From an uncultured Porphyromonadaceae bacterium (GTDB taxonomy: Bacteria; Bacteroidota; Bacteroidia; Bacteroidales; Muribaculaceae): a DNA stretch of 32,509 bases. Every line of letters starts with the position of its first letter. The first letter of the stretch is position 1. The notes beneath the pieces were generated by a model that saw nothing but the letters and a program-made list of their open reading frames with translations, did no database searches and was not told where the DNA came from. The translations under genes were made by a program, and so were the position numbers. Location of the stretch: positions 76,828 through 109,336 of the forward strand of contig CAMWUY010000001.1 in assembly GCA_947177615.1 (NCBI GenBank), given 5' to 3'. Shown here one piece after another: positions 27,384 through 32,274 of the stretch.

Positions 27384-27788
27384 ATGGAATTTACCCCTTT
27401 TGAAACAGCACTTAAATATCATCTTGACAAACGTGCTGAAGAAGATCCTCAGTTCGCCGCATCATACGCTAAACCAAATAAATCTTTGGAAGAATGTTGC
27501 AAGTACATCTACCAGGAAGCAGAAAAAGCCAACAAAACGAAACAGAAAGTTATGGGAGTCAAAGGCGAAGAGGTTATTGGACTTGCCATTCATTACTATG
27601 ATGAAGATGACATTGTAGTAAATGGTCCGAAAAATAAGGTGGAAGCTGTGCAAAGCTCCACACCGGAAACTCCAACTACTCCCGAACAAGCTACTCCCGA
27701 AACTAAGCGTAAGACTCGCAAGCCCAGAAAACCCAAAACAGAGGTTGACCCCAATATCCCGGAGCCTCTGGATATTCCGATTTTCTAA
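27384..27788 (+). CDS. PcfK-like protein
   Basis: FETALKYHLDKRAEEDPQFAASYAKPNKSLEECCKYIYQEAEK...GEEVIGLAIHYYDEDDI, located immediately upstream of a PcfJ-like gene. Confidence 0.75.
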   Translation: MEFTPFETALKYHLDKRAEEDPQFAASYAKPNKSLEECCKYIYQEAEKANKTKQKVMGVKGEEVIGLAIHYYDEDDIVVNGPKNKVEAVQSSTPETPTTPEQATPETKRKTRKPRKPKTEVDPNIPEPLDIPIF

Positions 27789-27806
27789 TCATCACGCCGA
27801 CATCAC

Positions 27807-29111
27807 ATGAAGCCAAGAAATAAACTTCAGAGAAAGATTCTGAAACTATCTCAGGGTCTTTCTCCACTAACCGAATACCAGTACAAAGAGGCTGTAAGGA
27901 AAGTTGGTCTGCATATCGCTAAATATAGTCCCAAGAGAGGGTATGAGTGTTTAGATTGCGGTCATACTTGGACTGGAGCTGAGGCAAAGCGAGCAGTTTG
28001 TCCTCATTGTGCTGCAAAACTGGAAGTTGACAAGACTCGGAAAAAGAATTTTTGCGATAAGTCATACTTCGCAGTGGTTACAAAATGCCAGGGTTTTCAA
28101 GTGGTTCGGATGTTCTTTATGCAGACCAATCTAAGACAAGGCAGTGAACCGACATATTGGATATGTGAGGCATTTCAACGATGGCTTACTCCAGAAGGGA
28201 AAACCCAAATAGTTAGTCGTGCTCGACATTGGCTCTCTCATTATTGTGATTGCTGGAATTGGGGGAGCGATATGGAATTACGAGATGAAAATGCCGGCCA
28301 TACGGTAACACCTTGGAAAGTTGTAGGTCAATCATCAGTAATCTCTGAAATCAGACGTAATGGATATGCTGGAGACTTTCACCACTGTTCACCTTACACT
28401 CTTTTTAAGAGGCTTCTGACAGATAACAGGATTGAAACACTATGGAAAGTAGGGCAATATAAATTAGTTGCTTATTCATTTGGCAATTCATATAAGTTTG
28501 ACAAATACTGGTCGTCAATAAAAATCGCCTTACGTCACAAGTATCAGATAAAAGACCCTACAATATGGTTTGACTTACTTGACTCCTTGGAGTACCTAAA
28601 TAAAGACCTCCGAAATCCAGCTTTAATTTGTCCGGCTAATCTGAAAGCCACCCATGATGAATGGATGGCGAAAAAGGAATCCAAGATACAGAAAGAGCGC
28701 GAGCGTCAGGAAAGACTGAGACTTCAAAGAATTGAGGAACAATATTTGGAAGATCTGAAACAAGCTCAAAAAGATGAAGATGAGTACAAAAACTCCAAGT
28801 CCAAATTCTTCGATTTGGAGTTCAAAGACAAAGAAATCATCATCAAACCTTTGATGAGTGTGAAGGAATTTATTGAAGAAGGACGTCAAATGCACCATTG
28901 TGTCTTTACTAATAATTACTATAAAAAGCAATCTGCTTTGATACTTCACGCATTGGTCGAAGGTGTGTCAATAGCCACAATAGAATTTTCTTTGGAGGAC
29001 TTCTCAGTCGTTCAATGTCGAAAGGCATATAACAAGAAGCCTGAATTATATGATCGGATAATGACATTGATGAAAAGAAACACTCCCCAAATAATGTCTA
29101 AAGCAGTATAA
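27807..29111 (+). CDS. PcfJ-like protein
   Basis: N-terminal zinc ribbon (CLDCGHTW...CPHC) and C-terminal MHHCVFTNNYYKK...IATIEFSLEDFSVVQCRKAYNKKP typical of PcfJ-like proteins. Confidence 0.8.
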   Translation: MKPRNKLQRKILKLSQGLSPLTEYQYKEAVRKVGLHIAKYSPKRGYECLDCGHTWTGAEAKRAVCPHCAAKLEVDKTRKKNFCDKSYFAVVTKCQGFQVVRMFFMQTNLRQGSEPTYWICEAFQRWLTPEGKTQIVSRARHWLSHYCDCWNWGSDMELRDENAGHTVTPWKVVGQSSVISEIRRNGYAGDFHHCSPYTLFKRLLTDNRIETLWKVGQYKLVAYSFGNSYKFDKYWSSIKIALRHKYQIKDPTIWFDLLDSLEYLNKDLRNPALICPANLKATHDEWMAKKESKIQKERERQERLRLQRIEEQYLEDLKQAQKDEDEYKNSKSKFFDLEFKDKEIIIKPLMSVKEFIEEGRQMHHCVFTNNYYKKQSALILHALVEGVSIATIEFSLEDFSVVQCRKAYNKKPELYDRIMTLMKRNTPQIMSKAV

Positions 29112-29433: not shown

Positions 29434-29685
29434 ATGGAAGTATATAGCGTACAAGTTGAATATACCGGCCAACGCCCTTCTGAGGACTGGAAAAATCATA
29501 CTCTTTGGTCAACATTTGAAGGCGCCAAACGTGGCCTAAAAGAAGAGCGTGACGGTATTCTCCAAGAGAAAACGTGGCTCAAAAATGAAAACTGCATAGA
29601 AATTGATGAAGAAGATCATTTTTGTGCTGGTGACGATGACGAGTCCTATGAAATTACAATCATCAAAGAAACAGTCCATGAATGA
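29434..29685 (+). CDS. Hypothetical small acidic protein translationally coupled to the RT
   Basis: MEVYSVQVEYTGQRPSEDWKNHTLWSTFEGAKRGLKEERDG...; stop overlaps the RT start (ATGAATGA). Confidence 0.55.
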   Translation: MEVYSVQVEYTGQRPSEDWKNHTLWSTFEGAKRGLKEERDGILQEKTWLKNENCIEIDEEDHFCAGDDDESYEITIIKETVHE

Positions 29686-30949
29686 CAAAATATTAGAGAT
29701 GTTCTTCGACATTAAACGTTGGACGTATGCCATTGACAAGGGTGTCGGGAAGCATATCAATAAAGCTCATCTCTACCAGCTTACTAAACCTGAGACCAGA
29801 GCCGCAATGTATGCTGCCATTCGGGATGGTAAGTATGAGATAGCTCCACCTCATACGGCTCAAATTCCGAAAGATAACGGAGATTTCCGAACCGTCTATA
29901 TCAATGAGCCGGTTGACCGCGTATTTCTCAGCATTGCCAATGACCTCTTGTTTGAGCTTATGCCTGAGATGATTCATCCGGCTTGCCAGTCCTACCAAAA
30001 AGGTATTGGATGTGGTAAGATCGTGAAAGAAATATCTCAGAAAATCTGTGAGACCAAAGGTGAGGTTATCGGATGGAAATCTGACTTCAGCAAATATTTC
30101 GACACAGTACCCATTCAGTTTATTGACAGGGCCTTTGATAAGGTTGAAGCCAAATATGGCCATTCAGCTATCATAGATGTACTTCGCAAGTATTATCACT
30201 CTGACTGGTATTTTGATGCAGACGGTAATCTCCAGAAATCCTACCAGTCACTCAAACAAGGTTGCTCAGTAGCCTCTTGGTTAGCCAATGTGGTAATGTT
30301 TAGTCTGGATGAGCGATTGAGCAAGCTGGATGGCGAATACGTCCGCTATTCCGATGATGCTCTGTTTGTCGGCCCGGATTATATGAGGGCAATGGAAATT
30401 ATGTCTGAAGAAGTTGCAATGCGAGAAATGACACTCAATCCCAAAAAGATAGAGTATTTGACGCATACTCGCTGGTTCAAATTTCTCGGATTCTCTATCA
30501 AAGGCGCTTCCATTTCACTCAGTTCCACAAGAATCAAAGCCTTTCAAAAAGAAATTGAGGCCCGGACAATTCGTGCTAAGAGCAAAAGCTACAATAGAGC
30601 CATCAATCAAGTGAATAATTATCTGTATATCGGCAATGGCGAATATAGCTGGGCCACTCAGGTTCTTCCGGTTATCAACGTAAAGAAAGATGTTCAGATA
30701 CTATCGGTATTTGTTGCAGATTGCTTACGAGCAGTGATGACTGGCAAAACTAAAGTTGGTGGCTTAGGTTATGTGGCCAATAATCCTGATGGCTGTATTC
30801 AACGTGGCCTTGGTCGAAATGTAAAGGCAAATCGTATCAAAACCGATAAGACGCTTCCAGGCTACTATACTCTGGGATGTATGCAAAACGCTCTCCGCAC
30901 CAGTAAAGAAGTCTATAAAACTCTGGTGGCTAATCTAAATCGGAAATGA
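29678..30949 (+). CDS. Stand-alone reverse transcriptase (RNA-directed DNA polymerase), non-DGR type
   Basis: GDFRTVYINEPVDRVFLSIANDLL ... WKSDFSKYFDTVP ... LKQGCSVASWLANVVM ... YVRYSDDALFVG (YSDD at 30347-30358) ... TRWFKFLGFSI: RT motifs in order; 423 aa from ATG 29678. Confidence 0.9.
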   Translation: MNDKILEMFFDIKRWTYAIDKGVGKHINKAHLYQLTKPETRAAMYAAIRDGKYEIAPPHTAQIPKDNGDFRTVYINEPVDRVFLSIANDLLFELMPEMIHPACQSYQKGIGCGKIVKEISQKICETKGEVIGWKSDFSKYFDTVPIQFIDRAFDKVEAKYGHSAIIDVLRKYYHSDWYFDADGNLQKSYQSLKQGCSVASWLANVVMFSLDERLSKLDGEYVRYSDDALFVGPDYMRAMEIMSEEVAMREMTLNPKKIEYLTHTRWFKFLGFSIKGASISLSSTRIKAFQKEIEARTIRAKSKSYNRAINQVNNYLYIGNGEYSWATQVLPVINVKKDVQILSVFVADCLRAVMTGKTKVGGLGYVANNPDGCIQRGLGRNVKANRIKTDKTLPGYYTLGCMQNALRTSKEVYKTLVANLNRK

Positions 30950-30966
30950 TATAAAGTATAGATTGA

Positions 30967-31100
30967 GTGTGCAATGACTGATAGAACGACAATCCTTTCA
31001 GTGAAGGATCAACAACCCTACTGTGGGCCAGGAGCTATCGCTTTCCGTGGCCAACAGTATGGCAGGATCCTTCTGACATCAAACATCTAAAGTAACACAC
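30967..31100 (+). ncRNA. RT-linked array unit 1: structured RNA candidate
   Basis: P1 GTGTG(30967-30971)/CACAC(31096-31100); box GATAGAACGACAAT (30980-30993); hairpin TCAG-tg-AAGGATC(30998-31010)/GATCCTT-CTGA(31066-31076) with inner TACTGTGGGCCA/TGGCCAACAGTA; then CATCAAACATC-TAAAG (TAAAG at 31088). Confidence 0.75.
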
Positions 31101-31126
31101 GATTTTGTCTGACTATCAATTACCGA

Positions 31127-31271
31127 ATATGCGGTCTTATCTGAAGGGTCAATCATTCAATTATACAGAAGATGCCAAGATGGGCCAAGTTCCATCATCT
31201 CTTATCAGAGATGACTTTCACTGGCCCATCTGAGATATTCTGTAGAATATCAAACTAATAAAGCGACATAT
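31127..31271 (+). ncRNA. RT-linked array unit 2: structured RNA candidate
   Basis: P1 ATATG(31127-31131)/CATAT(31267-31271); box ATCTGAAGGGTCAAT (31139-31153); hairpin TACAGAA(31164-31170)/TTCTGTA(31238-31244), AGATGGGCCA(31178-31187)/TGGCCCATCT(31222-31231), CATCTC/GAGATG; then TATCAAACTAA-TAAAG (TAAAG at 31259). Confidence 0.8.
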
Positions 31272-31299
31272 CATTGACATGACAGATATTATAAGCCAA

Positions 31300-31424
31300 G
31301 TATATGGTAGCAATCTGAGAGATGATAAATTTAGTTTGGGCTTCATTAAGCTGCCGCTGTAGGCCATACCTACCCTCCAGCGGCAGCCATAAAGCCCTGA
31401 CATCAGACAGTTAAAGAGATATAC
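31300..31424 (+). ncRNA. RT-linked array unit 3: structured RNA candidate
   Basis: P1 GTATA(31300-31304)/TATAC(31420-31424); box ATCTGAGAGATGATA (31313-31327); hairpin GGGCTT(31338-31343)/AAGCCC(31392-31397), GCTGCCGCTG(31350-31359)/CAGCGGCAGC(31378-31387); then CATCAGACAGT-TAAAG (TAAAG at 31412). Confidence 0.8.
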
Positions 31425-31448
31425 CACATCATCTTCAGTAGCTTAGTA

Positions 31449-31600
31449 ATGCGACATTATAGTTCAAGAAAGCAAAATTCAGTCATCCAGATTGTCAATA
31501 TGACTCAGGTTCCACCGGCGTTTCAATCCTTATCAGGCTCTCACGCCGGTTCTACCTGAGTCATCCGTCTGGATTCCATCAGTACAATAAAGAAACGCAT
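31449..31600 (+). ncRNA. RT-linked array unit 4: structured RNA candidate
   Basis: P1 ATGCG(31449-31453)/CGCAT(31596-31600); box GTTCAAGAAAGCAAA (31462-31476); hairpin ATCCAGA(31485-31491)/TCTGGAT(31568-31574), ATGACTCAGGT(31500-31510)/ACCTGAGTCAT(31554-31564), ACCGGCG(31514-31520)/CGCCGGT(31544-31550); then CATCAGTACAA-TAAAG (TAAAG at 31588). Confidence 0.8.
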
Positions 31601-31628
31601 CGCTGTTTTTGAGAACCGTACAACCTCA

Positions 31629-31773
31629 GCACAAAGGAACATAATCAAGACTGGCAATTTATATAGAGCTGGATGTAATACTGGATCCGAATCGACGCCA
31701 GGTTAACCACCTGGCTTTGTCGATTCGGTACCAGTCTATCCAGCTCTGTAATCGACTCAGTAAAGAAATGTGC
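31629..31773 (+). ncRNA. RT-linked array unit 5: structured RNA candidate
   Basis: P1 GCACA(31629-31633)/TGTGC(31769-31773); box AATCAAGACTGGCAAT (31643-31658); hairpin AGAGCTGGAT(31665-31674)/ATCCAGCTCT(31738-31747), ACTGG/CCAGT, CCGAATCGAC(31687-31696)/GTCGATTCGG(31719-31728), GCCAGGT(31697-31703)/ACCTGGC(31709-31715); then AATCGACTCAG-TAAAG (TAAAG at 31761). Confidence 0.8.
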
Positions 31774-31812
31774 CAAGCCAATGAGATTATAATTTTTTAA
31801 CTAACAAATCAA

Positions 31813-32274
31813 ATGCAAACCATCTATTATGAAGCAATAGCGAAAGTTCAAAATGGAGCGAAGTTCCATATTGACTTTCAACAAAGGAGTCTGAAAATTG
31901 ATGGCAAATATGTCATTAAGAAAGGCGAGTATGAGGGTGAATTAGGAATTGAAGTATCTGATACTCCACTTCTAACTATTGCCCAACTCTTTCTTCGCTA
32001 TCAGCATAGTTTGCCTTCGGAAAGAAGTGATAATAAAAGATACAGATATTTCAATCCTCTTCCGGAGCATGAGCTTTCTGATAACGATATGCTTTACGGC
32101 GAACCACGAGAAACTGCTCAAATCAAATTGGAGCTTTATGTTCTGATAATGATTTTGAACGGCTCTCTGAAATGGGATGAATTTGCCAAGGACAAATGGT
32201 TCTGGCAATGCCCATCAGTAAAAGAACTCATCATCCTCAAAGAATGGGTTGAACCTAAAACAGAAAACAAATAA
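31813..32274 (+). CDS. Hypothetical protein downstream of the array
   Basis: 153 aa ORF MQTIYYEAIAKVQNGAKFHIDFQQRSLKIDGKYVIKKGEYEGELG... Confidence 0.6.
   Translation: MQTIYYEAIAKVQNGAKFHIDFQQRSLKIDGKYVIKKGEYEGELGIEVSDTPLLTIAQLFLRYQHSLPSERSDNKRYRYFNPLPEHELSDNDMLYGEPRETAQIKLELYVLIMILNGSLKWDEFAKDKWFWQCPSVKELIILKEWVEPKTENK

Follow-up and report, generated by a model that had tools for sequence, protein, structure and literature searches.

The UG27 locus and its phage setting

The window, the whole stretch of 32,509 nucleotides that was analysed, is the right end of a contig of 109,336 bp. The contig is BS-TP1-like; among named phages, its portal (49%) and head protease (36%) are nearest to those of Bacteroides phage BS-TP1. 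A reverse transcriptase (RT) gene and the gene for an accessory protein, RTas346, are separated in the window by about 863 nt, and this gap is filled by an array of five structured units (Table 1). With PADLOC, residues 1-419 of the RT were aligned to positions 2-420 of the 420 in the RT_UG27 model (E=7.6e-229, 758 bits), the runner-up models being UG26 (5.9e-31) and then Drt9 (1e-27). The sequence RYSDD is kept unchanged throughout the RT homologues, and the catalytic YxDD motif is intact. A structure model of the RT (pLDDT 87) found its nearest fold in a group II intron RT, followed by DRT9 and DRT2. RTas346 adjoins the RT in homologues as well as in the window. It was modelled with confidence (pLDDT 91.5), and no match was found for it in Pfam, nor for its model among PDB structures at E<=0.001, ToxN included; the predicted structure is possibly a new fold.

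The phage BS-TP1 (111,694 bp) carries the same RT cassette with eight units in its array; in its GenBank record the UG27 RT (PQ571274.1, L052 5995-7257) is labelled 'tail protein' and the ncRNA array of 1.35 kb has no annotation. In the window, PcfK-like and PcfJ-like genes, which are usually noted on conjugative elements, occupy 27384-29111 of the phage contig's sequence shown there, immediately upstream of the RT.

A coding function for the array was rejected, as its longest open stretch is just 52 codons. Scans with promoter consensus sequences gave no assignable promoter. Rfam provided no match to the array at gathering score, and at E<=1 merely chance-like miRNA and CRISPR models far under threshold, while the fold of the whole array has a z of -10.3.

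Table 1. Features of the UG27 RT cassette, by position in the window
Feature	Span	Strand	P0	P1 (5' strand/3' strand)	P2	P3	UAAAG box	Remarks
Reverse transcriptase, UG27 class	29678..30949	+						423 aa, catalytic YSDD; PADLOC, Pfam RVT_1
ncRNA unit 1	30962..31118	+	30962-30965/30972-30975, loop A30966	30967-30971/31096-31100 (GTGTG/CACAC)	30979-30984/31113-31118 and 30988-30992/31105-31109, AAC/UGA internal loop	31003-31073	31088-31092	Pairs verified; covariation across homologues
ncRNA unit 2	31122..31288	+	31122-31125/31132-31135	31127-31131/31267-31271 (ATATG/CATAT)	31138-31143/31283-31288 and 31148-31153/31273-31278	31160-31248	31259-31263	
ncRNA unit 3	31296..31438	+	31296-31298/31305-31307	31300-31304/31420-31424 (GTATA/TATAC)	31315-31318/31435-31438 and 31321-31326/31428-31433	31338-31397	31412-31416	
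ncRNA unit 4	31446..31616	+	31446-31447/31454-31455	31449-31453/31596-31600 (ATGCG/CGCAT)	31462-31465/31613-31616 and 31469-31473/31605-31609, AAG/UGA loop	31485-31574	31588-31592	
ncRNA unit 5	31624..31790	+	31624-31626/31635-31637	31629-31633/31769-31773 (GCACA/TGTGC)	31641-31646/31785-31790 and 31652-31655/31777-31780, AAG/UGA loop	31665-31747	31761-31765	
T-run	31793..31798	+						Directly 3' of P2 in last unit; likely 3' end of array transcript
Accessory protein RTas346	31813..32274	+						153 aa; PADLOC RTas346 E=7e-67

Architecture and covariation of the units

Every unit is a pseudoknot bearing a long variable hairpin (P3), and the five are variants of one design. The bases flanking the 5' strand of helix P1 pair together as P0 (ATTG-AGTGTG-CAAT, ACCG-AATATG-CGGT and CCA-AGTATA-TGG in units 1-3), placing this strand within a six-base loop of A+RYRYR. 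The P0 of unit 4 has 2 bp in the window and 4 bp in the homologous locus L003, and that of unit 5 closes with a C-A mismatch in the window and with C-G in L004. P2 begins just after P0 and pairs with the bases just after the P1 3' strand, crossing P1; its strands are TGATAG..GACAA with TTGTC..CTATCA in unit 1 and TATCTG..GTCAAT with ATTGAC..CAGATA in unit 2, likewise in units 3-5. The P2 helix has two parts, and its internal loop is AAN/UGA in most units. P3, a hairpin of near-perfect pairing, is located between P2 and P1, and the P1 3' strand (YRYRY) sits downstream of a UANAG box.

A sequence-only reading had recognized the five P1 pairs, with the 3' strand starting 8 nt after the start of TAAAG in all five units and each 5' strand preceded by A; all ten of its coordinates and sequences are exact. 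The A is the first base of the P0 loop and occurs in 54 of 71 units when homologues are included, making it a preference and not a rule. The same reading took P1 to be the helix that closes each unit. With its 5' strand in the P0 loop and its 3' strand between those of P2, P1 is instead a pseudoknot helix.

The background frequency of other RYRYR words in the same stretch was 9.1%, a level at which five matches in five units would arise by chance with a probability of about 6e-6. Related RTs were drawn from genome, viral and phage collections, yielding 19 loci and 96 units after deduplication; the complementarity seen in the window was perfectly Watson-Crick in 91 of these units, while four had one G-U pair and one had a single mismatch. 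Because the parser used for this count locates units by their complementarity, the partner test was redone on boxes selected solely for the 3' consensus (UANAG, three bases, YRYRY), with the other 31 RYRYR words as background. An exact partner was present upstream of 67 of the 72 boxes so chosen, compared to 9.1% for the other words, and the partner lay inside the loop of a 3-bp hairpin in 72%, compared to 0.45%. A descriptor of P0, P1 and P2 recovered exactly the five units and nothing else within the window, and 155 units over all loci (duplicates included) vs 3 in shuffled copies.

Compensatory changes were observed both between units and within one unit across phages, which bears out the proposal that P1 is a selected nucleic-acid helix. 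Thus, the ATATG/CATAT of unit 2 is replaced by GTATG/CATAC in L003, and the GCACA/TGTGC of unit 5 by GCATA/TATGC in L003 and GTACA/TGTAC in L014; L002 has GCACA/TGTGT, an intermediate containing a G-U pair. The alternation of purines and pyrimidines, also noted in the sequence-only reading, is a rule of the family: all units in the final set follow RYRYR, and the pattern reappears when boxes are picked without requiring it, with one degenerate box in L056. This box (UAUAG CAA GCGCC, at about position 1127 of the intergenic region) is without a YRYRY partner and is perhaps a decaying unit.

In a covariation matrix of 46 columns and 71 units, the eight strongest of the 1035 column pairs were exactly the three pairs of P0 and the five of P1; the choice of units leaned on P1 and P0, and hence the descriptor scan and the consensus-box partner test are the less biased support. 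For P2, the strands of a unit paired with an average of -15.5 kcal/mol, compared to -7.8 (sd 3.0) for strands swapped between units, and for 53 units the own partner ranked in the top three of 72. Of five orthologue groups folded with RNAalifold, which cannot draw pseudoknots, three (those of units 1 and 2 and of the ACGTA last unit) yielded both P0 and P2, and each of the five contained 5-16 compensatory pairs. Two motifs were conserved far above shuffles, UUYA preceding P3 in 68 of 72 units and AUYR some 10 nt upstream of the UANAG box in 63 of 72. The sequence of P3 itself varies between units and phages while the structural core is kept.

It had further been suggested that the different P1 words keep each unit from mispairing with its neighbours. 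This orthogonal code was rejected, as words recur within one array: GCACA is found in three of five units of L055, GTATG in three of seven of L056, and both GCACA and GCATA three times each among the eight units of L017. Cross-pairing of P1 strands within arrays (9.9%, or 32% with G-U allowed) compares with 7.8% overall, and drawing five words that all differ would not be unusual at the observed word frequencies. The words therefore do not distinguish units. The P1 observation is real and strong, and it was in topology and orthogonality that the earlier reading erred; P1 may plausibly have a role in cDNA output.

Distribution and evolution of the arrays

All complete UG27 RT loci examined have the array next to the RT; in 18 of the 19 deduplicated loci, it lies between the RT and accessory genes. 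The exception is L017 (4998-9345), where the RT and RTas346 are fused in one frame of 554 aa and an array of eight units, displaced by about 1.2 kb, is found downstream of a different gene. This fusion, together with the distant array, indicates that the array is an independent module, not a leader for the accessory gene. L017 also contains scattered copies of a repeat like GGGAAGAAGTAAGA, some of them within the RT frame. Among the more distant RTs (L030-L051), no such array was found, the descriptor giving one isolated match at chance level; the array is confined to UG27 loci.

Arrays gain and lose units, the homologues having two, four, five, seven or eight, with unit 2 absent from L010. 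The units are very divergent, spanning 76-192 nt from P1 to P1'. The neighbouring units 3 and 4 of L015 share an identical stretch from the end of P3 to P1' (TATTCGATTACAGAAATGCGTCACA), as a recent duplication or conversion would leave. L058 and L059, which are the most divergent loci, contain two units with a short P3, and both units of L059 have a separate T-run behind them. Overall, a run of at least five T follows nine of 15 last units compared to three of 62 internal units, and this suggests a transcript end immediately 3' of the last P2.

Candidate functions and comparison with known systems

The analysis as a whole points to the units as probable tandem ncRNA partners, possibly templates, of the UG27 RT, which would then be a DRT-like RT with many ncRNAs and not one. 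Alongside the observed structure, covariation, confinement to UG27 loci and presence in phages, the proposed steps of transcription, binding by the RT and use as template are modelled on the studied members of Class 2 DRT, in which a cis-encoded ncRNA serves as template (PMC13174585, PMC12632851, PMC12483538). The array would be transcribed as far as the T-run after its last unit, and the RT would bind each unit through its pseudoknot core. A segment beside the core, either P3 or the unpaired stretch that separates it from P1, would provide the template or specificity part, such that one phage RT would make or use several RNAs or cDNAs. RTas346 would act in the same pathway as the RT; given that it has no known fold, its effector step is a guess. 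That phage genomes carry these cassettes suggests conflict between phages or between phage and host, and the likely setting would be one involving other phages or host defences.

A more specific version is advanced tentatively, namely that the RT may copy a different segment from each pseudoknotted ncRNA of a tandem library to generate a panel of distinct cDNAs per locus. No template could be assigned in the units, and inspection of their single-stranded segments by eye showed no direct-repeat A-B-A' pattern of the DRT10 kind. If this version is true, gain and loss of units would retune a multi-template array; to our knowledge, no described RT system uses such an array.

Alternatively, the array could act simply as RNA, its tandem pseudoknots binding and restraining either RTas346 or the RT, as the RNA antitoxins of type III toxin-antitoxin systems do with their toxins. 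These ToxI-like systems are characterized by tandem pseudoknots in one array next to the gene of a small protein, and the conservation of the structural core while P3 varies would fit. However, antitoxin repeats are short and near-identical, unlike the longer, divergent units of UG27 loci, the array strictly accompanies an RT with intact YSDD, and a ToxN/AbiQ-like protein is absent, RTas346 matching no fold in Pfam or the PDB; this role is accordingly considered unlikely. Still less probable is a structured leader or attenuator controlling translation of the accessory gene, notwithstanding the position of the array just upstream of its start on the same strand: in L017 the full eight-unit array stands behind a different gene, and five to eight independently covarying pseudoknots far exceed the needs of attenuation. 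Variation of P3 between units and phages around a constant core would also be expected of a guide-like array with P3 arms matching rival-phage or host nucleic acids. This was rejected as highly improbable: among 50,697 phage genomes the sole match at E<=1 was the homologous array of BS-TP1 (targets shorter than about 20 nt would escape such a search), and the window's own genome held no significant match besides the array itself. Nor does the array have identical repeats of CRISPR length, its repeats being short and imperfect, and CRISPR repeat models in Rfam matched only far under their gathering score. Finally, a retron-like msr/msd array, in which each unit would yield branched multicopy single-stranded DNA, shares with this locus an RT beside a structured RNA with a long, near-perfect, msd-like hairpin, but was rejected as the most improbable reading, since the RT scores 758 bits as UG27 and 34 with the best retron model among the matches listed, it has neither VTG nor the NAxxH motif, and P1 and P2 form a pseudoknot and not a closing a1/a2 helix.

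As putative partners of the RT, the UG27 units have their closest counterparts among the ncRNAs of the UG/DRT enzymes. These RTs have repeatedly proved to make unusual DNA, including genes de novo, homopolymers and telomere-like repeats, each from one ncRNA. No paper naming UG27 or RT-associated ncRNA arrays was found in the literature covered; as far as that literature shows, UG27 is uncharacterised. It now has a defined candidate RNA partner, a base-resolved and covariation-backed model that predicts mutations to break and restore pairing.

The order of elements in a UG27 unit (P3, a single strand with the UANAG box, and the P1 pseudoknot) recalls the stem, template and conserved pseudoknot described for telomerase RNA (PMC12039810); this is a resemblance of layout only, with no homology shown, and the UG27 units are tandem. 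In the pseudoknotted ncRNA of DRT2, a poorly conserved template is flanked by short conserved motifs (PMC12039810), and P3 likewise lies between short conserved flanks. UG26, DRT9 and UG17 are among the RT families nearest to the RT of the window, and in DRT9 and DRT10 (UG17), the relatives of known function, the cis ncRNA is the cDNA template (PMC12483538, PMC12632851). A UG-family RT beside a structured ncRNA, commonly with an accessory protein, is the arrangement of Class 2 DRT (DRT2, DRT9 (UG28), DRT10 (UG17) and DRT3a), and the UG27 locus has both the intact YxDD and the conserved structured ncRNA in cis. It differs from DRT10 in having RTas346 where that system has SLATT (PMC12632851), and in that UG27 loci are phage-carried; the P0-loop pseudoknot with its strict RYRYR rule is a further distinction from the DRT systems. 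Another difference, which is also a point against a DRT-like role, is one of number: DRT2, DRT3, DRT9 and DRT10 each have a single ncRNA, whereas UG27 loci (19 loci) contain two to eight different units. This raises a question beyond the single-ncRNA systems, that of why one RT would need many RNAs, and suggests one enzyme served by a whole set of structured RNAs, not the usual single one.
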